Origin: a virus
Reading direction: 5' to 3' (one strand)
IMG/VR virus record: IMGVR_UViG_3300036853_000241
Location: 1-40,702 of that record
Length of the DNA stretch: 40,702 nucleotides
Positions 5,763-40,702 of the stretch are shown in pieces. Both the position numbers and the translations under genes were made by a program. Under the pieces are notes generated by a model. That model was not told the DNA's origin. It did no database searches and saw only the letters and a program-made list of their open reading frames with translations. Numbering within the stretch: position 1 is the stretch's first letter; the number at the start of each line of letters is the position of its first letter.

Positions 5763-6158
5763 GACAAGTCGGGCGGGGCCAGTCGGAAGCCGAGTAGTTT
5801 GGCGGCTTCCGGCGGACGCGGGACAAGAGTGATGTTCCGCTGCCCCGTTCCGGCTTTACGAAAAGGCGGGCTGGGTCGCTGGTTGTGTTCTGGTGATTGG
5901 GTAAGCGACACATGGGTTCTCTCCGAGGGGTGTTCCTTCGGCCCATACCAGCCCGCTGAACACACGGCCCGCGGGGATTGGATAGCGAATGCTGCGGCGT
6001 TACGCCGTGGATGATCGCGAGTGCCCTTCAGTTCGAGACGCTTCAGGTCGGAGTCATCCGAGTGCTTCGCACCCGCAGGGCGGCTCCTCCAGAAGCGCAG
6101 TTCCGAAAGTGACCGACCCCGCGGGCCGTCTTTCAACCAACAGCGTGAGGGTGATTCG
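5763..6158. other. Intergenic block with inverted repeats
   Basis: About 400 bases without a convincing gene. It has a 9-bp stem at 5784-5792/5803-5811. A longer-range pair joins ACGGCCCGCGGG near 5964-5976 with CCCGCGGGCCGT near 6117-6129, enclosing about 140 bases. The plus strand could fold into a long leader RNA ahead of the gene at 6159. No known RNA family was recognised. Confidence 0.45.
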
Positions 6159-7010
6159 ATGAGCGCGTTAGACCAAGCGGCGAAGTTGAAAGCGGCACGA
6201 CGGGCGGAACTCGCCGCGGCCGAAGAGGAACGCCAGCGGCAAGAGGAAGCCGCACGTCGAGCATCGAACGAGGCACTGAGTGCGGCCGTCAGAAGTCTCC
6301 TGGAAAGATCCGAACTTGCATGGCTTGAACCGCTCGTGTCGGAGGTCAACTTTCAAAGTGACACGCTCGCCACGATCTCGTTCCAGGTGCCCGGCCACCG
6401 TGCGATCTATACCAGCTTCAGTCGCACCGGGGTTGACCCATTCGCATGGGCTCATCTTCCCTCGGTAAACAGTCGGGCCTTCAATTGGACCGCGGTCGAT
6501 TCGCGCGGCAATCACCCCCAATGCCAAGACATCTCCGACGCGCTCATCGCCGCAGAGATCGAAGGCTGGACGCCGCCCAAGTCGCCGGTGAACAAGGAAC
6601 TGCTCGAAGCTGAAGTGGCAAAGATCTGGCCGGCGATGTTCGCGCATGGCATGCCCGCGGACGTCGCCCTGGAGCTGCTCGAAGAGAAGACGGAGGAAGA
6701 CGCCGAAGTGAACGCGGACGCGCTGCTGATACATGCAGTCGCGTGGATGGCGAACACTCGCCCCACCGATGAGCAGATGGGCGCCTTCACCCATGCGGAT
6801 GCAGGCATGATCGGCGGCGAGGTCCTCATGAGGAATTTCGACAACGCCGAGGCACGCCGCAAACATCTGGCGAACCGACTCTGTGAACGGGAACTGACCG
6901 ACCCCGCATTCGCCGGTCCGTGGCTGGAGTGGTGCGGCCAGATGCGGCACGCGATCGCACTCTGTCGCGCGGTTGCTGCGGAGGCAAGCGCGCAAGGAGA
7001 ACCGAAGTGA
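6159..7010 (+). CDS. Hypothetical protein with N-terminal coiled coil
   Basis: 283 residues, unrecognised. Residues 5-45 are a charged Ala/Glu/Arg coiled coil (KLKAARRAELAAAEEERQRQEE). The middle is alpha/beta with W/F-rich strands, and the C-terminal third is helical with a His/Cys cluster (MRHAIALCRAV). Start ATG 6159 follows GTGAGGGTG. The last codons contain one member of the stem-loop family (6967-6993), and the stop overlaps the GTG start of the next gene. Confidence 0.7.
   Translation: MSALDQAAKLKAARRAELAAAEEERQRQEEAARRASNEALSAAVRSLLERSELAWLEPLVSEVNFQSDTLATISFQVPGHRAIYTSFSRTGVDPFAWAHLPSVNSRAFNWTAVDSRGNHPQCQDISDALIAAEIEGWTPPKSPVNKELLEAEVAKIWPAMFAHGMPADVALELLEEKTEEDAEVNADALLIHAVAWMANTRPTDEQMGAFTHADAGMIGGEVLMRNFDNAEARRKHLANRLCERELTDPAFAGPWLEWCGQMRHAIALCRAVAAEASAQGEPK
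6967..6993. repeat. Stem-loop element 1 (10+7+10)
   Basis: Arms GCGCGGTTGC and GCAAGCGCGC pair with one G-G mismatch at the fifth pair from the loop. The loop is TGCGGAG. It lies in the last codons of the gene ending at 7010. It shares TTGC-7 nt-GCAA and the S-S mismatch position with other family members. Confidence 0.6.
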
Positions 7011-7384
7011 AAGACGACACCAAGCAATACCGCACGATCGACAAGTTCGATCGACTGATGGGCGCACTGGTCGGACTGCCCGACGTGACGCACACCAAGC
7101 CAACCACCTGCGCTGTTGTCTCGCCCCTGATCGGCGAGGCGCAGACGTTCATCATCCAGACCTATCGCCAGCGTGAAGTCGGCGACACGATCTTCTTGCA
7201 GTACGTCGACGGCGAGGGCAGCGTCCGCATCGCGATCCCGCCCGAAGTGGCCGACGCGATCGCACGTCAGCGAGACGCACTCACGAGCAAAGTCCGCAAG
7301 CGAGTCGCACGCGACCAGGCCGCGGCACGCAAGGCGCGCGGCGAGCGGCCGGCGTTCCTGAAGAAGAAGGGCCAACCGAAATGA
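7007..7384 (+). CDS. Hypothetical early protein
   Basis: 125 residues, unrecognised. It begins with GTG overlapping the upstream TGA and has AAGGAG ribosome sites in the preceding codons. The N-terminal 85 residues look like a compact beta-rich domain (TFIIQTYRQREVGDTIFLQYVDGEG cut here as description), with a basic Lys/Arg-rich C-terminal helix that could bind nucleic acid. Its stop overlaps the ParB-like gene, so the two are probably made together. Confidence 0.65.
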   Translation: MKDDTKQYRTIDKFDRLMGALVGLPDVTHTKPTTCAVVSPLIGEAQTFIIQTYRQREVGDTIFLQYVDGEGSVRIAIPPEVADAIARQRDALTSKVRKRVARDQAAARKARGERPAFLKKKGQPK

Positions 7385-8481
7385 GCAAGCAACGCGAACT
7401 ACCGACCGCGAGCCTCTCGCTCCACCCCGAAGCGGGAGTCGTTCCCGAGATGCCCGAAGATCAGTTCAAGCTGTTCCTGGCGGACATCGAGAAGAACGGC
7501 ATTGAAGACCCGCTCGCCGTGTTGCCCGGAACGAAGATCGTCATCCGCGGCCGGACTCGGTTGCGCGCCGCCAACGTCCTCAACCTGCCGTCGGTCCCGG
7601 TAGTCGATGCGGACCTGCGCGGGCAATCGCCGGCGATGTACATGATCCGCGACGCCGTGCTTCGCCGCCAGCTCACCAAAGATCAACGCGCGGCCCTGGC
7701 TGCCGAGATCGAAGAGGACCTCACCAAAGCGGCGAAGGAGCGACAGCGGGAAGGCGGCAAGAAGGGGGCAGCAACCGCCGGACGTGGGCGTCCGAAGCAG
7801 GGCGATAATGGGGTTGTGGCGAATTCGCCACAACCCAAACCGGCTCCGAAGTCCCGGGACACCGCCGCGGCGATCGCCGGCGCGAAGCCCCGGGCCGTGT
7901 CCGACGCGAAGAAGTTGAAGAAGGTAGACCCCAAGGGATTCGAGCAGGTGAAGGCCGGTACCGTCACGCTCGCCGCGGCGAAGAACGCCGCGGGCATCAC
8001 CACGCCGAAGAAGGATCCCGCACCGTCGACACAACCGGCCGGGACGCCCCTTGATACCATCCAGAATTTCCCCACCGAGGCTCTCGCACCTCTGGCTCTC
8101 AAAGGCGTCCGCACTGTCGAGGACCTCGACGAGCAGCTCGCGGCCCTCCGCAAAGAGAGGGGCCGCAGCAGCGCCACACGCACCCATGTCCTGAGCAACC
8201 TGATCCCTGAGAACACGATGCTCGCCTGGAAGGCAGGCGACGCGCTGATTGATCATTTCGGGCCAACGAAGCAGCCGCCCAAACCCCCGCCTGCTCCGAA
8301 GCCATCCGATACCCCGCACGAACTCAAGCCCTGTCCCTTCTGCGAATCGTCGAACGTGGAGTACGTCAAGGGCCTTGGGATGTGCGTCATGTGTCATGAG
8401 TGCGGCAGCAACGGGCCGCGGAAGACGAGTGAGGTCGCCTGTTGCGTCGCGTGGAACAAAGCGCCGAGGGCCAAGAAATGA
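7381..8481 (+). CDS. ParB/Srx-like protein fused to Lar-type zinc domain
   Basis: 366 residues. Residues 1-115 look like a ParB/sulfiredoxin-fold N-terminal domain: a conserved NGIEDPLAVL turn, then VIRGRTRLRAANVL in place of the usual GxHR motif, followed by LRRQLTKDQRAALAAEI. A long Lys/Ala/Pro linker with one helical segment (AVSDAKKLKKVDP...) follows. Residues 315-366 match the Lar restriction-alleviation zinc module: LKPCPFCESSNVEY (C318, C321), CHECG (C338, C341) and the final AWN. The fusion may combine DNA binding with anti-restriction or host-factor control. It is coupled to the neighbours by 4-bp overlaps. Confidence 0.8.
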   Translation: MSKQRELPTASLSLHPEAGVVPEMPEDQFKLFLADIEKNGIEDPLAVLPGTKIVIRGRTRLRAANVLNLPSVPVVDADLRGQSPAMYMIRDAVLRRQLTKDQRAALAAEIEEDLTKAAKERQREGGKKGAATAGRGRPKQGDNGVVANSPQPKPAPKSRDTAAAIAGAKPRAVSDAKKLKKVDPKGFEQVKAGTVTLAAAKNAAGITTPKKDPAPSTQPAGTPLDTIQNFPTEALAPLALKGVRTVEDLDEQLAALRKERGRSSATRTHVLSNLIPENTMLAWKAGDALIDHFGPTKQPPKPPPAPKPSDTPHELKPCPFCESSNVEYVKGLGMCVMCHECGSNGPRKTSEVACCVAWNKAPRAKK

Positions 8482-8669
8482 GCGAGGGTACAACACCGGT
8501 TGCTGCGATTTGGGCTGACCGCGAGCTGATGCAGACTACGGCCCTGGCGCTACTGGCGAACCTCAAGTTCGCGGTGTGGTGCATCGAGAACCCGGGCCTC
8601 GGACCAACGCCCGATGCGCTCGCCAACATGAAAACCGCAATCGCACAAGCAGAGGAGAACCTCAAGTGA
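8478..8669 (+). CDS. Small hypothetical protein
   Basis: 63 residues, mostly helical, Ala/Leu-rich, with one Trp-Cys (VWCIENPG). The start ATG overlaps the stop of the ParB-like gene (ATGA). No family recognised. The stop overlaps the GTG start of the next gene. Confidence 0.6.
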   Translation: MSEGTTPVAAIWADRELMQTTALALLANLKFAVWCIENPGLGPTPDALANMKTAIAQAEENLK

Positions 8670-9001
8670 GCACTTGGAGAAAGCGACGGGAAGCCGCCCG
8701 GCGATCGGCGTTCCTCAACTCGACACCGCCTGTTGAATGGAAGTTGACAGTCGCCGAGAGGTTCAAGCGGTATTGGGAACACATCCACCCCGACCCGCTG
8801 ACCAGGCCCGACGACGAGTCGGCTCAGTTCATCGAAACCCGACGCTCGTTCTATGCCGGCGTCTTCGACATGATCGGCGCGATGCGGGCTATAGCAGAGC
8901 CGGGGGTAGCGGAGGAAGAAGGGACAGCGCACCTCGAAGCGTGTTACCTCGAATGCGTTGCCTTCTACGAGCGGATGAAAAAGCTGTACGGGATCGACTG
9001 A
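8666..9001 (+). CDS. Hypothetical protein
   Basis: 111 residues, unrecognised. The GTG start overlaps the previous stop and GAGGAG lies nearby. The protein has a basic N-terminus (STWRKRREAARRSAF) and a helical, aromatic core (RSFYAGVFDMIGAMRAI, CYLECVAFYERMKKLYG). This pattern occurs in small phage hypothetical proteins next to GPWxxx/IAAAPD-type genes. The stop at 8999-9001 is followed at once by stem-loop element 2. Confidence 0.65.
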   Translation: MSTWRKRREAARRSAFLNSTPPVEWKLTVAERFKRYWEHIHPDPLTRPDDESAQFIETRRSFYAGVFDMIGAMRAIAEPGVAEEEGTAHLEACYLECVAFYERMKKLYGID

Positions 9002-9002
9002 C

Positions 9003-9029
9003 GACCGGTTGCTCCGGATGCAACCGCGC
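9003..9029. repeat. Stem-loop element 2
   Basis: Arms GACCGGTTGC and GCAACCGCGC form seven perfect pairs next to a 7-nt loop (TCCGGAT). It begins two bases after a stop codon and ends 13 bases before the GTG start at 9043. Confidence 0.7.
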
Positions 9030-9042
9030 TAGAGGGAACCAA

Positions 9043-9303
9043 GTGGCCAAGCACAAAGCGGCGAAGCGGACGAAGCGCGAATCAGTCGGCGCGGACCAGA
9101 TCATGAATGCCATCGTCGCGCAACTGGAGATCGCTGCTGAGATCGAGCGAGAGCTGAAAAAACTGGCGAAGGTCTACCAGTTGGAAGCCAAGCTCACCGT
9201 GGCCAAGTATTACGGGCTGACTCTCGCCCAGGTCGATCTGCCCTTTGTGGAATGGCGTTCATTACGCGACAGATACGAGCAGGAGACGGGCAAGAAGTTG
9301 TGA
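9043..9303 (+). CDS. Small helical protein
   Basis: 86 residues, GTG start. It begins with a basic segment (AKHKAAKRTKRES) and continues as amphipathic helices (IAAEIERELKKLAKVYQLEAKL). The purine-rich AGAGGGAACCAA upstream is the ribosome site. It sits between stem-loop elements 2 and 3. Function not recognised. Confidence 0.6.
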   Translation: MAKHKAAKRTKRESVGADQIMNAIVAQLEIAAEIERELKKLAKVYQLEAKLTVAKYYGLTLAQVDLPFVEWRSLRDRYEQETGKKL

Positions 9304-9308
9304 TTCAC

Positions 9309-9335
9309 GACCGGTTGCTTGTGGAGCAAGAGGTC
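9309..9335. repeat. Stem-loop element 3
   Basis: Arms GACCGGTTGC and GCAAGAGGTC pair 4+4 with a two-base internal mismatch. The 7-nt loop is TTGTGGA. It lies between the stop at 9303 and the GAGGAG ribosome site of the gene at 9352. Confidence 0.7.
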
Positions 9336-9351
9336 GAACTGAGGAGATGCG

Positions 9352-9672
9352 ATGAAGGCGAAACACACAAAAGGACCGTGGGCCGTTGAGAACGTGAACT
9401 CAGACGCACTGCACGACGTGATTATGGATTACCAGATTCCCGGCGCGGGCTTCCCATGTCTTGTCGCCACGGTGTTTGCTGACGATGATCCGCACCGGCC
9501 GGGTGACATTTCGAACGCCGAGGCCGAAGCGAACGCCCGATTAATCGCCGCCGCTCCGGATATGCTCGCTGCCCTGGAGGATGTGGCCACTGCGTGCGAA
9601 GGAACCGCAATTGTGCCCGTCTCTACCATTCTTCCGGCCGTGCTCGCCGCCTTAAAAAAGGCGAACCAATGA
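9352..9672 (+). CDS. Widespread phage protein of unknown role (GPW...LIAAAPDMLAAL type)
   Basis: 106 residues. It matches a very common phage hypothetical family by its pattern: HTKGPWAVE at the N-terminus, a variable middle, then AEANARLIAAAPDMLAALEDV. The function of the family is not known to me. GAGGAGATGCG precedes the ATG. Stem-loop elements flank it on both sides, so it looks like one unit of a string of small cargo genes. Confidence 0.8.
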   Translation: MKAKHTKGPWAVENVNSDALHDVIMDYQIPGAGFPCLVATVFADDDPHRPGDISNAEAEANARLIAAAPDMLAALEDVATACEGTAIVPVSTILPAVLAALKKANQ

Positions 9673-9697
9673 CCGCTTGCTCTCATAGCAACCGGTC
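9671..9697. repeat. Stem-loop element 4
   Basis: Arms GACCGCTTGC and GCAACCGGTC pair over ten positions with one C-C mismatch. The loop is TCTCATA. It starts within the stop codon of the upstream gene and lies just before the AAGGAG ribosome site of the gene at 9719. This is the best-paired of the intergenic copies. Confidence 0.75.
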
Positions 9698-9718
9698 GAG
9701 AACCAAGGAGAAGCCGTC

Positions 9719-10201
9719 ATGCAGGTGATCACGATCAAGCCCGAATGGCGAACGAGCACGGTGATTGCACTGTGTCAGCACATGCGTGACGCGCAGGACT
9801 TCGCGGCGATGCCGATTCTGGCCGACGCTCTGCAAGACGCGGACTGCGATAACGAGAATTTGTTGCAAGTGCTTCGTTTCGGATCTGGCAACTACGCCGA
9901 AGACGCGGCGATCGTGGCGATGATCAAGAGCCCCGATGCCGCCACCTCGGTTCGCTGGCTCCTTGCGTTTGCCGACGCCCACGATGGTTCCGGGTATGAG
10001 GACCATTATTCCCGGAAGTGGACATATCAGGACTTCATGGAAGCCGCCGCGAATTACCTTCGGACTGGTGACTACATCACCGGCGGAACCGAGCTCGAAG
10101 CCGAGAGTGTGCCTGACGTGTTCTGGGATCATTACCAAGCCATAACGGGTCAGCAAGTGCCGGAGTCGAAGCGAGGCAGCTTCTTCTCCTGCTCGTGTTG
10201 A
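9719..10201 (+). CDS. Hypothetical protein
   Basis: 160 residues, acidic and helical, ending in a Cys-rich tip (FFSCSC). The segment AAMPILADALQDADCDNENLL recalls the ADWLEE motif of TIGR02996-type domains typical of Gemmata proteins, but the match is partial. AAGGAGAAGCCGTC precedes the ATG. It is flanked by stem-loop elements 4 and 5. Confidence 0.65.
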   Translation: MQVITIKPEWRTSTVIALCQHMRDAQDFAAMPILADALQDADCDNENLLQVLRFGSGNYAEDAAIVAMIKSPDAATSVRWLLAFADAHDGSGYEDHYSRKWTYQDFMEAAANYLRTGDYITGGTELEAESVPDVFWDHYQAITGQQVPESKRGSFFSCSC

Positions 10202-10206
10202 CCCAC

Positions 10207-10233
10207 GACCACCTGCTACATCAGCAACCGCGC
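10207..10233. repeat. Stem-loop element 5 (degenerate left arm)
   Basis: The right arm GCAACCGCGC equals that of element 2. The left arm GACCACCTGC has diverged, so only part still pairs. The 7-nt loop is TACATCA. It lies between the stop at 10201 and the ATG at 10246. Confidence 0.5.
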
Positions 10234-10245
10234 AAGGGAAGCAAG

Positions 10246-10701
10246 ATGAGATGGAAGAGGATCATGATGAGGTGGTTCTCTACACGAATCAGGGTGCCCA
10301 TGAAGACCTACAAGCCACCGGAGAGGGATGAAGCGGTCGCCTTTGTGAAGGCGATTCTCGACGGCGACACGAGCGCCGCCGCGGTGTTCGCAGACTGGCT
10401 GGAGGAACACGGCGACAAACGCGCCGTGTTGCTTCGCCGGCGTTGGAAGCTCTGGCAGAAGAAAATCGCGGAAGCAGACAAGCCCGAACGGGTTCTTATC
10501 AGGGATTGGAAAAGGAGGGTACGAGCTGCCCGCGCCCGATCTCTGATTGACCGCACCGACGAGGAGATACTTGAAATGGTCAAAGCGCACATCAGACGCA
10601 GTGCCGACTACTCATTCTGCAAGTACGTCCGCGAAAAGTTCCACGACGAGTACCTTTGGATCCCAATCGACACAAACTCCCAAGCGTACTTGTCGTCGTG
10701 A
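10246..10701 (+). CDS. TIGR02996-type domain protein
   Basis: 151 residues. Residues about 30-68 (AFVKAILDGDTSAAAVFADWLEEHGDKR) fit the TIGR02996 repeat-companion domain, which I know mainly from Gemmata and some myxobacteria, with the hallmark ADWLEE.GD. The rest is basic and helical. The frame is open upstream to 10195, but that would translate the stem-loop element; ATG 10246 after GGGAAGCAAG is preferred. The host-like domain suggests acquisition from a planctomycete chromosome. Confidence 0.75.
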   Translation: MRWKRIMMRWFSTRIRVPMKTYKPPERDEAVAFVKAILDGDTSAAAVFADWLEEHGDKRAVLLRRRWKLWQKKIAEADKPERVLIRDWKRRVRAARARSLIDRTDEEILEMVKAHIRRSADYSFCKYVREKFHDEYLWIPIDTNSQAYLSS

Positions 10702-10850
10702 AGAAAGCCCGCATCGGATGCGTGGCTGCATGGGGCAGGGAATGCCCCTCCCCGGCCGCAAGGAACGCGGCCCGCCTGTGACGCCCGCGGGCAAAGCGTG
10801 GATCCCGTCCGTCCGCGGGTGTTCACAGGTCTTCAGGCCTGAGACTCAAT
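10702..10850. other. Short intergenic gap with small hairpins
   Basis: 149 bases with no gene. Several GC-rich self-complementary stretches (for example around GGCCGC...GCGGCC near 10755-10775) suggest local folding. No clear promoter or T-run was seen. Confidence 0.4.
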
Positions 10851-11276
10851 ATGAGCCGCGCGAACATCGATCGCATGTGCAAAGTCTTCGGCCTGGAAAG
10901 TCCTTTCAACAAGAGCGCTGAGGAGATCGCCATGAACCGCACGGCTCGCAAGAAGTCGCAGGGTCGGAAACCGTCGAAGCGCAAGCTGCTTTGCCAACCC
11001 GAGGACCTCTTTGAACCGATGCCGCCGCTGCCGGCCGATGCGATGCCGGCGACGATCGCGGACATGAACCAGGTGAAGGACGGGCTGGATATGCTCGTGA
11101 CGATGGTTCAGCACCTGGTCGACCAGTCCGCACGACCGCTTGCTCGGGCTGCAACCGGTCAAACCGAACGCGTTGTTGAGGTCGTTCACATCGGGGAGCA
11201 GCTCTACCGCGAGATCAAGGCCCGGCTGGAGAAGGATTTTCCGGCCCTCAAAAAGCAGCGGAGCAAAAAGCGATGA
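10851..11276 (+). CDS. Hypothetical basic protein
   Basis: 141 residues, unrecognised. Basic at both ends (RTARKKSQGRKPSKRK near 35-50 and KKQRSKKR at the C-terminus) with a helical middle that could dimerise (NQVKDGLDMLVTMVQHLVDQ). An internal ATG at 10932 is an alternative start. The segment coding RPLARAATGQ (11134-11160) is a well-formed member of the stem-loop family, so an element seems to have been absorbed into the reading frame. Confidence 0.6.
   Translation: MSRANIDRMCKVFGLESPFNKSAEEIAMNRTARKKSQGRKPSKRKLLCQPEDLFEPMPPLPADAMPATIADMNQVKDGLDMLVTMVQHLVDQSARPLARAATGQTERVVEVVHIGEQLYREIKARLEKDFPALKKQRSKKR
11134..11160. repeat. Stem-loop element 6, inside a coding region
   Basis: Arms GACCGCTTGC and GCAACCGGTC are identical to element 4, with the same C-C mismatch. 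The 7-nt loop is TCGGGCT. It lies within the gene 10851-11276. Confidence 0.7.
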
Positions 11277-16455: not shown

Positions 16456-19053
16456 GTGTTCGACTGGCTGCGATCGCGATTCGGCTGGGGGCGCGGTACC
16501 GAAACCGCACGCCCCACGCCTCTACGCGCACGCTACGAGAACGCACAGACCACGCCCGAGAACCAACGCTCCTGGTGGGCGGTCGATTATCTCTCGGCGA
16601 AGGCCGCGAACAGTTTCCAGGTCCGCCGGATCCTCCGAACACGAAGCCGCCATGAAGTTGCAAACAACCCCATCCTCTTTGGCGTGGTCCACTCCAACGC
16701 TGACGACCTCATCGACACCGGCCCGACGATCCAGGTCTACACCGACAACGCGAAATACAACCGTCTTGTCGAAGGCTCCTGGAAAGAATGGTGCGAAGAA
16801 GTCGGGTTAACGGAGAAGGTCCGCACGACGAAGCTCGCGAAGTCGGTCGACGGTGAAGGGTTCCTCATCACGAAGACCGTGGAGGACCTCGAACACCCGG
16901 TCAAACTCTACCCCTGCGACGTCGAAGCCGACCAGATCACAACCCCAGTGCCGAAGAACATCGGCGAGCTGTGGGTCGATGGGCTCGAACTGCACCCGGT
17001 TACCGGAAAGCCGACGCACTACACGGTCTTGAAGACTCACCCCGGCGATTACTTCTTCCCCGATTTGAACCCGCTGGCAACCGAGCGGATCCAGGCCCGG
17101 CACGTCGTCCACTGGTTCACCCAGTCGCGGCCCGGCCAGGTTCGCGGTGTGCCGATCTTCACGCCCTCCCTCGACCTCTTCAGCGAGCTGCGCGCGTACC
17201 GTAAGGCCGTGCTCGGCGCCGCGGAGATCGCGGCGGACTACGCCGCGGTGATGGAGCAGGACCGCGAGGCCGGGGCCTACCCCGACGACGACGAGGACAA
17301 CGACGCCGAGTACCAGGCGTTTAGCCGCGTGCCGCTGTCGCGGAAGATGCTGACCGTGCTGCCACCCGGCGGCAAGATGAACCAGCTCGACCCGAAGCAG
17401 CCGACGACCACGTACGAGATGTTCCAGGAGAAGTGCCTCGGCGAAGCGTGCCGGCCGCTCTCCTACCCGCTCAACCTGGCGCTTGGCACGTCGCAGAAGT
17501 TCAACTTCAGCTCGGCGAAGCTCGACCACATCAATTACCGCAACTCCCTTTCGATCGAACGCGACCAGTGCGCGAAGATGGTGCTCGAACGGATCTTCCG
17601 CGCGTGGTTTGAAGAAGCGGTGCTCTGCGGTGCGATCCCGGCATTCCAAGGTCTCACGGTCCCACCGCACGAATGGCACTGGCCGGGCTACGAGCCGCTT
17701 GACCCAGTCACCGACGCGCAGGCCGATCACGAACGGCTCAGTAACGGCTCGGACACGTGGCAACGGTTCTGGGCACGCCGCGGCCTGGATTACCGCGACG
17801 TGTTCCGGCAACAGGCCGCGGAGCAAGAGGAAATCGACACGCTCGGCCTCCAGTTCGGCGAACCGGCGTCGAAGACGATCAGCGAAACGCAGGACCTCAC
17901 CGACGACGGATCCGGCACGCCGCCCAACAAGGCGACCGCACACCGCCAGTTGTGGCGGAACTTCGTTCGTGCACGGGCGGCACTGCTGCGTGCGACGAAG
18001 GACGACAACGGCCAGGAGCACGACGACAAGGGCCGGTTCGGCGAGGGCGGCGGGGGCGGGGAGAAGGACGGCTCCGATAAGGGCGACAAGAAACCGAATC
18101 CCGAACATGCCGAGCATCACGACCGCTGGCGAAAGGAAGACGACGAGGTCGAAACCAAGCGTGAGAAGGAAGACGACGAGGTCGAAACCAAGCGTGAGAA
18201 GGAAGACGCGGTCATCGAGAAATCACGCCAGAAGCAAGAGCAGCAGACGGAGAAGGAACTCGCCAAAAAGCATGCTGCCGAAAACCGCCAGGTCGAACGC
18301 GAGCGTGCGGCCGAAGACAAGAAGACCGAGCGTGACCGCAGCCAAGAAGATAAGAAGGTCGAGCGGTCGCGAGAGAAGGAAGACGACGAACTCGAACGCG
18401 AGGAAGAACGGGAGCGGGAGCGGGTCGGCTACGGCGACAAAGAAGAAGAGATGTATGGCCGCCAGGAAACCGAGGAGAAGTCACTCAAGGAAAAGCACGA
18501 GCAGGCTCACGAATCACTCAAGCGTGACGTTCTCGATCGGGTCGAGAAGGGCGAACTGACGGCGCCGGAAGCCCAAGAATCGATCGACGAGCAAAGGCGA
18601 GTGCAGGAACGGGAACGAAAAGAACTCGTTCAGAAGCACATGCAGGAAGAACAAGACCTCTACGAGACGTTAGAGACCCCCAAGAAGAAGACCGAGATCG
18701 AAGACCAGCGCGACGAGGAAGACGGGGATCGCGAAGAACGCCGGTCAGAAGAAGACAGCAAGCGAGAAGAAAACCGGGAGAAGGAAGACGAAGAGCGCGA
18801 AGAACGCCAATCCAATGAACGCTCCAGCTTGGAGCGTAAGTGGGAGAGGGAAGACGAAGATCGCGAACAACATCGATCGGAAGAAGACGAGGATCGCGCC
18901 AGCAAGAGGGATCAGGAAGACGCCGAACGATACCAACAGCGCAAGAACGATCAGCCTGGCGCGCACGAGGCTTACTACGACGCCGACAACCACAAGCGGC
19001 ACGGCGACACGAAAGCCGACGCGGCGCGGCGGGGGGCGGTCCATGCGCATTAA
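16456..19053 (+). CDS. Portal protein (lambda gpB-like) with long charged C-terminal extension
   Basis: 865 residues. The first ~515 residues are a lambda-family portal: N-terminal helices, NNPILFGVVHSNADDLIDTGP, GEGFLITKT, HVVHWFTQSRPGQVRGVPIF and PLSYPLNLALG are typical. It forms the packaging vertex of the head. The remaining ~350 residues are an almost pure Glu/Lys/Arg/Asp coiled coil beginning after a Gly-rich hinge near EHDDKGRFGEGGGGG, with short repeats such as EDDEVETKREK. Lambda portals end near 530, so this is an unusual addition, perhaps scaffold-like. GTG start directly after the preceding gene. Confidence 0.88.
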   Translation: MFDWLRSRFGWGRGTETARPTPLRARYENAQTTPENQRSWWAVDYLSAKAANSFQVRRILRTRSRHEVANNPILFGVVHSNADDLIDTGPTIQVYTDNAKYNRLVEGSWKEWCEEVGLTEKVRTTKLAKSVDGEGFLITKTVEDLEHPVKLYPCDVEADQITTPVPKNIGELWVDGLELHPVTGKPTHYTVLKTHPGDYFFPDLNPLATERIQARHVVHWFTQSRPGQVRGVPIFTPSLDLFSELRAYRKAVLGAAEIAADYAAVMEQDREAGAYPDDDEDNDAEYQAFSRVPLSRKMLTVLPPGGKMNQLDPKQPTTTYEMFQEKCLGEACRPLSYPLNLALGTSQKFNFSSAKLDHINYRNSLSIERDQCAKMVLERIFRAWFEEAVLCGAIPAFQGLTVPPHEWHWPGYEPLDPVTDAQADHERLSNGSDTWQRFWARRGLDYRDVFRQQAAEQEEIDTLGLQFGEPASKTISETQDLTDDGSGTPPNKATAHRQLWRNFVRARAALLRATKDDNGQEHDDKGRFGEGGGGGEKDGSDKGDKKPNPEHAEHHDRWRKEDDEVETKREKEDDEVETKREKEDAVIEKSRQKQEQQTEKELAKKHAAENRQVERERAAEDKKTERDRSQEDKKVERSREKEDDELEREEERERERVGYGDKEEEMYGRQETEEKSLKEKHEQAHESLKRDVLDRVEKGELTAPEAQESIDEQRRVQERERKELVQKHMQEEQDLYETLETPKKKTEIEDQRDEEDGDREERRSEEDSKREENREKEDEEREERQSNERSSLERKWEREDEDREQHRSEEDEDRASKRDQEDAERYQQRKNDQPGAHEAYYDADNHKRHGDTKADAARRGAVHAH
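18133..18198 (+). repeat. 33-bp tandem repeat in the portal extension
   Basis: Two exact consecutive copies, 18133-18165 and 18166-18198, encode an 11-residue Glu/Lys/Asp-rich unit. They show recent slippage or duplication in the coiled-coil tail. Confidence 0.8.
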
Positions 19054-38269: not shown

Positions 38270-39382
38270 ATGCCCCAAAAGCCTAAGAAACCAGCGCCGG
38301 AACCGGATGCGCGCAAAACTCGCGCATCTCGGAACACCTTACGCCAACAATCTAAACTAAGTCAGCCCGAGAAGGTTGAAGGGGGAGCCGATGCGCGTGT
38401 AAATATTGCCTGCCACGAGTCACACCCGTCGCCCGCGCCTGCCCCAAGCCCAACAACCTTGTACACAATCAACCGACTTCGCGAGGACTTCCTCGCCGAA
38501 GCAGGGATGCTTGTTCGCTCCGGCGAGCTGAAGGACGTCACGCTCCGCGGCTACGAGTACCAACTCGGGAAGCTCGACCCGTTCGGCGAATTCCCCGCCG
38601 ACACACTGCGGGTTCACCACCTCCACACGATCCCGTGGACCAACGGGTTCGTGCGCATCTTGAAGCAGCTTTACAAGTGGGCCACCGACAACCGCATCAT
38701 TCCCGTGGACCCGTTCGAGAAGACGAAGATCCCTCCGTGCGGGCGGCGAGAGCGGGTGCTGACGCGCGGCGAACTCGCGAGGCTCTACCGGGCCGCGCCG
38801 CGGGCCTTGCGGGTGCTGCTCTTCGTGCAGCTCCGCACCCTCGCCCGGCCCGGCGAGATCCGGAATCTCACGTGGGGCCAGATCGACTGGGAACGGCGCG
38901 TGATCGTGTTGACGGAATTCAAAGCGAAGGCGAAGCGACGTGACAAGCTCAAGGCTCGGTGCATCCCGCTCCACAAGACCGTGCTCCGGCTGCTGCGGAA
39001 CCTGCACCGCAAATCACCCGATCCGTCCGACGGCGGGCGAGTCTTCTACAATCAGCGGTTTCACATGCCGGTGAGCCGAAGAAGAAAAGCACTCGTGACG
39101 GAGCGGTGTGGGCCGTGGAGCGCCAACGGCGTACGATGCGCGATGCGCAGGGCGCGAGTGGCCGCGGGACTGATGGACGGCGGCGAACGCGTCGTCTGCT
39201 ACACACTCCGGCACACCGGGGCAACCCAAATGTGCCGGCGGAAGATCGACCTGAAGCACATCGCGGAAGTCATGGGCCACGCGCGGACGACGACAACCGA
39301 GCGGTACACCCACCTCGACACCAAAGACATGGTCGCGACGATCGACGAGCTGTTCGCACGGCCGCGAACAAAGACAGGGTGA
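38270..39382 (+). CDS. int: Tyrosine recombinase (integrase)
   Basis: 370 residues. Residues 1-70 are a Lys/Pro-rich extension. The SAM-like core-binding domain spans about 65-155 (TLYTINRLREDFLAE, FVRILKQLYKWATDNRI), then the catalytic domain: R193 (LARPGEIR), R314-H315 (TLRHTGAT), H337 (MGHARTTTT), and the nucleophile Y346 (ERYTHLD). The usual first His of HxxR is Tyr (Y311, VCYTLRHT), an unusual change worth noting. It inserts or excises the genome. Late-type leader GGTTCGCCCATG. Confidence 0.9.
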   Translation: MPQKPKKPAPEPDARKTRASRNTLRQQSKLSQPEKVEGGADARVNIACHESHPSPAPAPSPTTLYTINRLREDFLAEAGMLVRSGELKDVTLRGYEYQLGKLDPFGEFPADTLRVHHLHTIPWTNGFVRILKQLYKWATDNRIIPVDPFEKTKIPPCGRRERVLTRGELARLYRAAPRALRVLLFVQLRTLARPGEIRNLTWGQIDWERRVIVLTEFKAKAKRRDKLKARCIPLHKTVLRLLRNLHRKSPDPSDGGRVFYNQRFHMPVSRRRKALVTERCGPWSANGVRCAMRRARVAAGLMDGGERVVCYTLRHTGATQMCRRKIDLKHIAEVMGHARTTTTERYTHLDTKDMVATIDELFARPRTKTG

Positions 39383-39745: not shown

Positions 39746-39754
39746 TGCTATATT
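39746..39754 (+). promoter_or_regulatory. Extended -10 promoter of the tRNA-like gene
   Basis: TGC-TATATT forms an extended -10 element. The predicted 5' end of the tRNA-like RNA is 20 bases downstream (39774). A TTCC-rich -35 region is weak. Confidence 0.55.
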
Positions 39755-39773
39755 AACGCGGTCAGAGTAGCGA

Positions 39774-39873
39774 CGGGCCGTAGCGCAGCTTGGCTAGCGC
39801 GCTTGCTTGGGGTGCAACCGGTCTAGCCGGTAAACTCTAACAGGCTTGGCGGGTTCGACTCCCGCCCGGTTCG
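39774..39873 (+). tRNA. tRNA-like gene, anticodon GGG (Pro), with long variable arm
   Basis: The 5' half matches bacterial tRNA-Pro: CGGGCCG acceptor, TA, D-arm GCGC...GCGC, then TTGC-loop-GCAA with loop TTGGGGT (anticodon GGG). The T-arm GCGGG-TTCGACT-CCCGC is perfect, and CGGTTCG pairs with the acceptor if one extra base is allowed, or with a 6-bp T stem. The region between has a hairpin CCGG...CCGG and totals about 30 bases, so it is type II-like. CCA is not encoded. The top anticodon-stem pair is C-C. It may be functional, divergent or a chimeric attachment site. Confidence 0.6.
39797..39823. repeat. Stem-loop element 7, the anticodon arm of the tRNA-like gene
   Basis: Arms GCGCGCTTGC and GCAACCGGTC around the 7-nt loop TTGGGGT. 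The right arm equals that of elements 4 and 6; the C-C mismatch lies at the same pair. The left arm resembles element 1. Confidence 0.65.
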
Positions 39874-39941
39874 TTGCTACTGACCCCTCATAAGGTCAGA
39901 TAGCCACAGGCCCCGGCTGCTCGAACCAGTCGGTTCTTGTG

Positions 39942-39983
39942 CCCCCACCCTCGACGCTTGCCGGGGGTGGGGGTTTTCTTTTT
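39942..39983 (+). terminator. Strong intrinsic terminator
   Basis: CCCCCACCC (39942-39950) pairs with GGGTGGGGG (39965-39973), followed by TTTTCTTTTT. It would end the transcript that contains the tRNA-like gene and about 70 further bases with two small hairpins. Confidence 0.85.
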
Positions 39984-40641: not shown

Positions 40642-40702
40642 GACGCCGGCGTGTCGATGAAGTGAAGTGAAGCGGCAGTGAAGTGAAGCGGCAGTGAAAT
40701 TT
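40642..40702. repeat. Right terminal direct repeat (61 bp, imperfect)
   Basis: Same 61 bases as 1-61 except G instead of T at four places. 40653-40682 is also an exact inverted copy of 60-89. Two tandem 16-bp units are present, as at the left. Confidence 0.85.

Follow-up and report, generated by a model that had tools for sequence, protein, structure and literature searches.

Repeats matching the anticodon-loop flanks of tRNA-Pro bound gene modules in a virus genome: candidate tyrosine-recombinase sites

For the most part it is unexplained how temperate phages gain single accessory genes exactly where one gene ends and the next begins. In the virus record analysed here (IMG/VR IMGVR_UViG_3300036853_000241, positions 1 to 40,702, the whole of which we call the window) short inverted repeats stand at such boundaries, and the question is whether they are RNA hairpins, binding sites of a regulator or sites at which genes are exchanged.

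RESULTS

A repeat family in the cargo region

The repeat family is real. Six copies of a 27-bp repeat lie in the cargo region and a seventh in a tRNA-like gene (Table 1), which confirms the positions and the form given in an earlier note on this DNA: a 10-base half-site, a 7-bp spacer and another 10-base half-site, or a TTGC-T-N6-GCAA core with 10-base arms. The pattern TTGCTN6GCAA has eight matches with both strands counted, against 0.17 expected (sd 0.45), and the largest count in 100 shuffles was 2. A position weight matrix built from six copies scores the tRNA copy at 28.0; the next score in the window, at an unrelated site, is 13.5, and the best of 20 shuffles reaches 15.2. The single recurring mismatch that the earlier note had pointed to is found at arm position 6 in six of the seven copies; the copy at 10207 is the most diverged, with five arm mismatches and CTGC as its core.

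The first spacer base is T in 7/7 copies. No spacer is common to any two of them, so that no recent exchange is visible, and the spacer of copy 7, the proposed attP, is matched at 5/7 bases by the spacers of two other copies. All six cargo copies point the same way, and five of them end 12–21 nt upstream of a start codon with an SD sequence in between. Four copies had been described as lying exactly between a stop codon and the next ribosome site: this holds for those at 9003, 9309 and 10207, while the one at 9671 overlaps the stop codon. We found neither a terminator nor a promoter at the copies.

Table 1. Repeat copies and associated features in the window
Feature	Coordinates	Strand	Description
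Copy 1	6967..6993	+	GCGCGGTTGC-TGCGGAG-GCAAGCGCGC; both half-sites of GCGCG class; within last codons of ORF 6021-7010; GTG 7007 starts 13 nt on
Copy 2	9003..9029	+	GACCGGTTGC-TCCGGAT-GCAACCGCGC; stop 8999-9001 ends 1 nt before; GTG 9043 13 nt after
Copy 3	9309..9335	+	GACCGGTTGC-TTGTGGA-GCAAGAGGTC; right arm exactly as in canonical tRNA-Pro; stop 9301-9303 5 nt upstream; ATG 9352 16 nt downstream
Copy 4	9671..9697	+	GACCGCTTGC-TCTCATA-GCAACCGGTC; overlaps last two bases of stop 9670-9672; ATG 9719 21 nt downstream
Copy 5	10207..10233	+	GACCACCTGC-TACATCA-GCAACCGCGC; stop 10199-10201 5 nt upstream; ATG 10246 12 nt downstream
Copy 6	11134..11160	+	GACCGCTTGC-TCGGGCT-GCAACCGGTC; within ORF 10851-11276
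Copy 7	39797..39823	+	GCGCGCTTGC-TTGGGGT-GCAACCGGTC; on tRNA-Pro-like anticodon loop; proposed attP core
Small gene downstream of copy 1	7007..7384	+	No assigned function; frame by GC3
Single-gene unit, copies 2-3	9043..9303	+	Very weak Avd-like match, E 0.006
Single-gene unit, copies 3-4	9352..9672	+	phrog_1273, no assigned function
Single-gene unit, copies 4-5	9719..10201	+	phrog_11912 / 17762, no assigned function
Gene, copies 5-6	10246..10701	+	TIGR02996 domain
Xer-like tyrosine integrase	38270..39382	+	Core-binding and catalytic region; PF00589 E 2.6e-24
tRNA-Pro(GGG)-like gene	39774..39875	+	Rfam tRNA 22.7 bits, below gathering score of 29
Rho-independent terminator-like hairpin	39941..39983	+	Downstream of tRNA-like gene

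The modules bounded by the copies hold one to four genes and lie upstream of the terminase. No relatives of the cargo proteins were found in phages, plasmids or viral contigs. A diversity-generating retroelement, considered on account of the Avd-like match, was rejected, as no reverse transcriptase was found. The name of the TIGR02996 domain refers to Gemmata obscuriglobus and is a clue to the host; planctomycete-type bacteria are the predicted hosts of the virus.

Half-sites correspond to the flanks of the tRNA-Pro anticodon loop

Each arm belongs to one of two half-site classes, GCGCGSTTGC or GACCNSTTGC, and these are the sequences on either side of the anticodon loop in a canonical tRNA-Pro(GGG) gene. 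All 14 half-sites are within two mismatches of a tRNA-Pro anticodon half-site, three of them being exact, and isolated half-sites of either class occur nowhere else in the 40.7 kb. Related phage DNA (925 kb) has only four places where both arms match that closely at the same spacing, one of them being a tRNA-Pro gene. With a matrix made from the six cargo copies alone, three unrelated tRNA-Pro genes score 25.4 bits, whereas the best score in 1 Mb of related phage DNA is 17.7 bits. The half-sites are mixed among copies (BB, B'B, B'B' and BB'), and no compensatory base changes, as expected of a structured cis-regulatory RNA, were seen in the stem: among these seven sequences only, 78.6% of cells are paired against a shuffled mean of 81.4%. 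Mixed half-sites that do not covary fit a protein that reads each half independently.

A copy on the anticodon loop beside an integrase gene

The seventh copy had been placed on the anticodon arm of a tRNA-like gene, and this is borne out, with the type of the gene now given as tRNA-Pro(GGG) and its start as 39774. ARAGORN called it 'tRNA-Pyl', which we rejected in favour of this type; a 24-nt insertion between the variable loop and the T stem probably misled the program. A second tRNA-like stretch near 1505 had no match in Rfam. Taking the tRNA-Pro of L124, L125 and L126 as reference, rather than the host's own gene, the first 44 nt of the tRNA-like gene are 95% (42/44) identical to canonical tRNA-Pro and the stretch that follows only 11/30; identity runs through the overlap into the start of the right arm and then breaks off, in a way that resembles the crossover of an attachment site. 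The integrase gene lies ∼400 bp upstream of the core of copy 7, its product having an NCBIfam XerA/XerC match and, over residues 69–357, a match to the XerC-like PDB structure 4a8e. We regard it as the candidate recombinase for the repeat sites. Features of attachment sites in tRNA genes are found here, namely inverted half-sites flanking an overlap of 6–8 bp, an adjacent integrase gene, a core common with the tRNA gene and an overlap on the anticodon loop; anticodon loop and stem are the classical 7-bp overlap and core (PMC8371274). Attachment partners have the same overlap. The spacers of copies 1–6 all differ from TTGGGGT, and the cargo copies are therefore not classed as att sites.

The element in related phages

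Pattern scans and a covariance model over 1.06 Mb did not find the same element in relatives. In viral contigs the strict pattern had no match and a looser one gave 22 single matches without clusters, while eight isolated matches in unrelated bacteria are about chance level. The covariance search that the earlier note had proposed recovered, at E < 0.01, the copies of the window and tRNA-Pro genes and nothing else. In L009/G015, a relative with an integrase, we could not recognise the att site and saw no repeat family like this one; the repeats of L040 were rejected as such a family, being simple-sequence GTCCG/CTGTC runs. In the L083 sister phage group an element of another kind is associated with starts and bounds single-gene units gained or lost between contigs, and no tyrosine integrase was found in the 12 records of this group that were searched. 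Units that come and go in this way suggest that such organisation is wider than one phage.

DISCUSSION

We propose that each repeat is a simple tyrosine-recombinase site (10+7+10 bp), that the family is related to the attachment core and that its members bound gene modules, and we put the chance of this being right at about even. The basis, at the level of sequence, is the repeat family itself, its two half-site classes, their match to tRNA-Pro, the adjacent integrase and the absent covariation. Of the two readings put forward earlier, the one as a tyrosine-recombinase core thus has strong circumstantial support from the half-sites, the anticodon-loop copy and the neighbouring integrase. Copy 7 would be the phage attachment core, and a host proline tRNA gene the probable landing site of the virus. 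As their half-sites are the same as those of copy 7, the six cargo copies are expected to be bound by the phage integrase, or by a Xer-like recombinase with the same specificity. They probably mark points at which modules were acquired from, or exchanged with, other DNA bearing a site whose spacer matched, and the differing spacers inside one molecule would prevent self-deletion of the array. That variable spacers argue against exchange, as had been suggested, is not decisive given pdif module systems, in which most spacers within one molecule differ too and exchange needs matching spacers, often across two molecules (PMC13141974). Against recombination sites, no two copies have the same spacer, the orientation is single whereas pdif sites alternate, and five of six copies stand close before start codons, which an att-like site does not need. 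A fuller version, in which a phage-borne cassette system captures and exchanges single genes through the phage's own integrase at half-sites derived from the host tRNA-Pro gene, so that an accessory-gene array distinct from integrons and pdif modules grows beside the packaging genes, seems to us unlikely. If the repeats are sites of the phage's own tRNA-targeting integrase, the exchange of modules would be a defined reaction of an enzyme.

The main rival is a regulatory or linker role, because the L083 element bounds variable units with no integrase detected. A start-associated element, either bound as a palindrome by a dimeric phage regulator other than the integrase or aiding translation start, would account for the uniform orientation and the distance to start codons, and resembles what is proposed for the ESAS of cluster K mycobacteriophages (PMC3203893). 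It leaves unexplained why the arms equal the tRNA-Pro anticodon-loop flanks, in register, and why a seventh copy sits in a tRNA-like gene beside an integrase; no sigma-70-like promoter was seen at the copies, and we hold this role to be possible but somewhat unlikely. Repeated linkers, short identical boundaries at which general recombination could rearrange single-gene modules with no site-specific enzyme, in the manner of the PeSL of T4, would suit the gain and loss of whole element-plus-gene units in the L083 group, where the common element is a long one of some 30 bp or more. In the window only ∼20 interrupted bases are common to the copies, the arms are of two mixed classes and the spacer is exactly 7, a fixed spacing for which homologous recombination has no need, all of which makes linkers improbable here.

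RNA hairpins in mRNA leaders, controlling translation, mRNA processing or stability, were the other reading of the earlier note. Sense-strand copies just upstream of SD sequences, the invariant T of the spacer and the strong terminator-like hairpin downstream of the tRNA-like gene speak for them, and a variant would have the tRNA-like RNA pair in trans, its GCAACCGGUC being complementary to GACCGGUUGC arms. Pairing below the shuffled mean and weak local fold z-scores (–1.8 to +0.5, two copies being no better than shuffles) do not support hairpins, two copies lie inside reading frames, and we consider this quite improbable. Less probable still are binding sites of the ParB-like protein (7381–8481), that is, centromere-type palindromes dispersed in the early region as in phage-plasmids. 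A ParB-like N-terminal domain (PHROGs E 4e-7) is indeed encoded between copies 1 and 2, but the perfect palindromes AACGGCGCCGTT clustered at 1301–1399 are a better centromere candidate, and the tRNA match would be left unexplained.

Among known systems, integron attC arrays are alike in that imperfect inverted repeats separate single-gene units. In attC a longer site folds as a single strand and has GTTRRRY and RYYYAAC conserved at its outer ends, a layout absent from the window copies. The PeSL of T4 are intergenic repeats of stem-loop type where gene content varies, and as mobile regulatory cassettes they carry early promoters; none were found at the window copies. In the ESAS/SAS of cluster K mycobacteriophages, as described in PMC3203893, the ESAS is an imperfect inverted repeat whose spacer varies; it is associated with starts, upstream of small non-structural genes, and has a consensus that varies by phage group, including between subclusters, and five of the six cargo copies likewise stand just before the starts of small genes. 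In that description ESAS have 17-bp arms, spacers mostly of 4–13 bp, a paired 13-bp SAS and no attachment-core match noted, whereas the spacer here is exactly 7 and, by inspection, no 13-mer is common to copies and starts beyond SD-like bases.

The pdif/dif modules of Acinetobacter plasmids (XerC/XerD) share with the window conserved inverted half-sites of ∼10–11 bp, short variable spacers, small gene modules between the sites and a Xer-like recombinase, and conserved arms, variable spacers and intervening modules are the pdif pattern (PMC13141974). The comparison is only one of how the sites would work: the spacer is 7 bp here and not 6, the half-sites are 10 bp and not the 11 bp of XerC/XerD, are unrelated to these in sequence and match tRNA-Pro and not dif, and the array has one orientation, is on a phage and has a phage integrase as candidate enzyme. 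With a classical tRNA attachment core, copy 7 agrees in geometry, location and neighbouring gene; what sets the window apart from it is six more copies with other spacers, ∼28–33 kb away along the record.

Results

All seven repeats described by the earlier note, each a 7-nt spacer between two 10-base arms, are found in the window as described: six at the boundaries of small cargo genes and one, with the same half-sites and a different spacer, in a tRNA-Pro-like gene (copy 7). The motif TTGCTN6GCAA occurs 8 times, both strands together, against 0.17 expected. When a matrix is trained on the six cargo copies, copy 7 scores 28.0; the highest-scoring unrelated site of the window after it reaches 13.5, and the best of 20 shuffles 15.2. 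No isolated half-sites of either class were found elsewhere in the window. In five of the six cargo copies a start codon lies 12-21 nt past the end of the repeat.

In an RNA stem, a change on one side is expected to be matched by a change on the other. The sides of the repeats do not covary (78.6% of cells paired versus a shuffled mean of 81.4%), which speaks against the RNA hairpins suggested earlier; since there are only seven sequences, a conserved stem is made less likely by this but is not disproved. Six of the seven copies carry a mismatch at arm position 6, and on folding two copies are no better than shuffles and the others weakly better. The half-sites are two words, GCGCGSTTGC or GACCNSTTGC, present in every combination, with an extra change only in the left half-site of the copy at 10207; such free combination is as would be expected if a protein recognised the two half-sites independently.

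A canonical tRNA-Pro(GGG) gene, taken from three viral contigs, has the anticodon loop region GCGCGCTTGC-TTGGGGT-GCAAGAGGTC, whose flanks, read inward (GCGCGCTTGC and GACCTCTTGC), correspond to the two classes of half-site. Each of the 14 half-sites lies within two mismatches of a tRNA-Pro flank, three being identical, and across 925 kb of DNA from related phages only four places match equally well at this spacing, including one tRNA-Pro gene. With the matrix trained on cargo copies only, the tRNA-Pro genes of these contigs score 25.4 bits versus a background maximum of 17.7 in 1 Mb, and tRNA-Val and tRNA-Ala of contig L125, both with the same anticodon stem, score 24.0 and 23.1. Judged by these scores, the repeats resemble tRNA anticodon arms with a CTTGC stem, tRNA-Pro best.

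The tRNA-Pro-like gene matches the canonical one at 42 of the first 44 nt and then at 11 of 30, the identity breaking off inside the right arm of the copy 7 core, as would be expected near an attachment-site crossover. A Xer-like tyrosine integrase lies ∼400 bp before this region. It is established for tyrosine integrases that a 7-bp anticodon loop fits their overlap and the stem of that loop their core (PMC8371274). Because the gene retains its T arm and the pairing of its acceptor stem, it may in addition be transcribed as a tRNA-like RNA. Its flanks may lengthen the acceptor stem by about 7-12 pairs and its 24-nt insertion can extend the anticodon arm; possibly it is not a plain att remnant but a phage RNA of tRNA-like form.

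The window is an entire virus record of 40.7 kb and carries portal, terminase and head genes of lambda type. Its host is likely a Gemmata-like planctomycete, because a gene between cargo copies 5 and 6 has a TIGR02996 domain, named for Gemmata obscuriglobus. The repeat at the record ends perhaps reflects terminal repeats or assembly of a circular genome, and a palindrome cluster is a possible centromere, operator or origin repeat. One gene very weakly matches Avd, an accessory protein of DGRs; no reverse transcriptase was found in the record.

Features of the window and of the L083 contig
Feature	Position	Remarks
61-bp direct repeat	1-61 / 40642-40702	93% identical; includes 16-bp AGTGAAGTKAAGCGGC units
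Perfect palindromes AACGGCGCCGTT	1301-1399	closely spaced
ORF	7381-8481	ParB-like N-terminal and Lar-type restriction-alleviation C-terminal domains
Gene matching Avd	9043-9303	very weak, E 0.006
Acidic-charged 33-bp coding repeats	18103-18933	end of long portal-type ORF; overlap start of next ORF in different frame
tRNA-Pro-like gene	39774-39875	copy 7 on its anticodon loop
Same, with flanks	39754-39892	
Start-associated element CGGCTTG-N10-AACCGCATGGCTCATGTGTG	L083 1246-6550	minus strand; also in L062, L066, L069, L071, L075, L077-L079, L085, L092, L095, L097
Hammerhead type II ribozyme match	L083 816-883	minus strand; adjoins module array; 39.6 vs Rfam gathering score 37 bits

Discussion

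Inferring function throughout, we favour recombination sites and give this reading about an even chance, the chief reason being that half-sites of tRNA-Pro type lie next to the integrase. Pattern and covariance searches of viral contigs and related phage DNA found no relatives with the same element. The L083 sister group, drawn from terminase relatives, has a different element upstream of each small gene, in up to 11 copies and in the same genome region as the window array. Units of element plus single gene are gained or lost as wholes between contigs with a fixed backbone order (A-C-B-D-E; A-F-C-B-D-E; A-H-F-B-I-C-B-D-G-E), which supports element-bounded gene modules in this phage clade.

No tyrosine integrase was found in the L083-group records, which may be incomplete, so elements of this kind are not necessarily sites of an integrase, and two rivals stay alive. 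The main one, a start-associated regulatory element, fits the position of the L083-group elements at gene starts; we consider it rather unlikely. The variation of the units fits boundary elements serving as linkers of gene modules, a reading we consider less likely still.

If the repeats are recombination sites, a parallel is offered by dif modules of Acinetobacter plasmids, in which conserved half-sites with mostly different spacers enclose small gene modules; there, exchange depends on spacers that match fully or almost so, and frequently involves two molecules (PMC13141974). The phage array would then be stable inside one genome and open to exchange with DNA bearing a matching spacer. Like dif modules, the cargo copies combine the same half-sites with varied spacers at small-gene boundaries.
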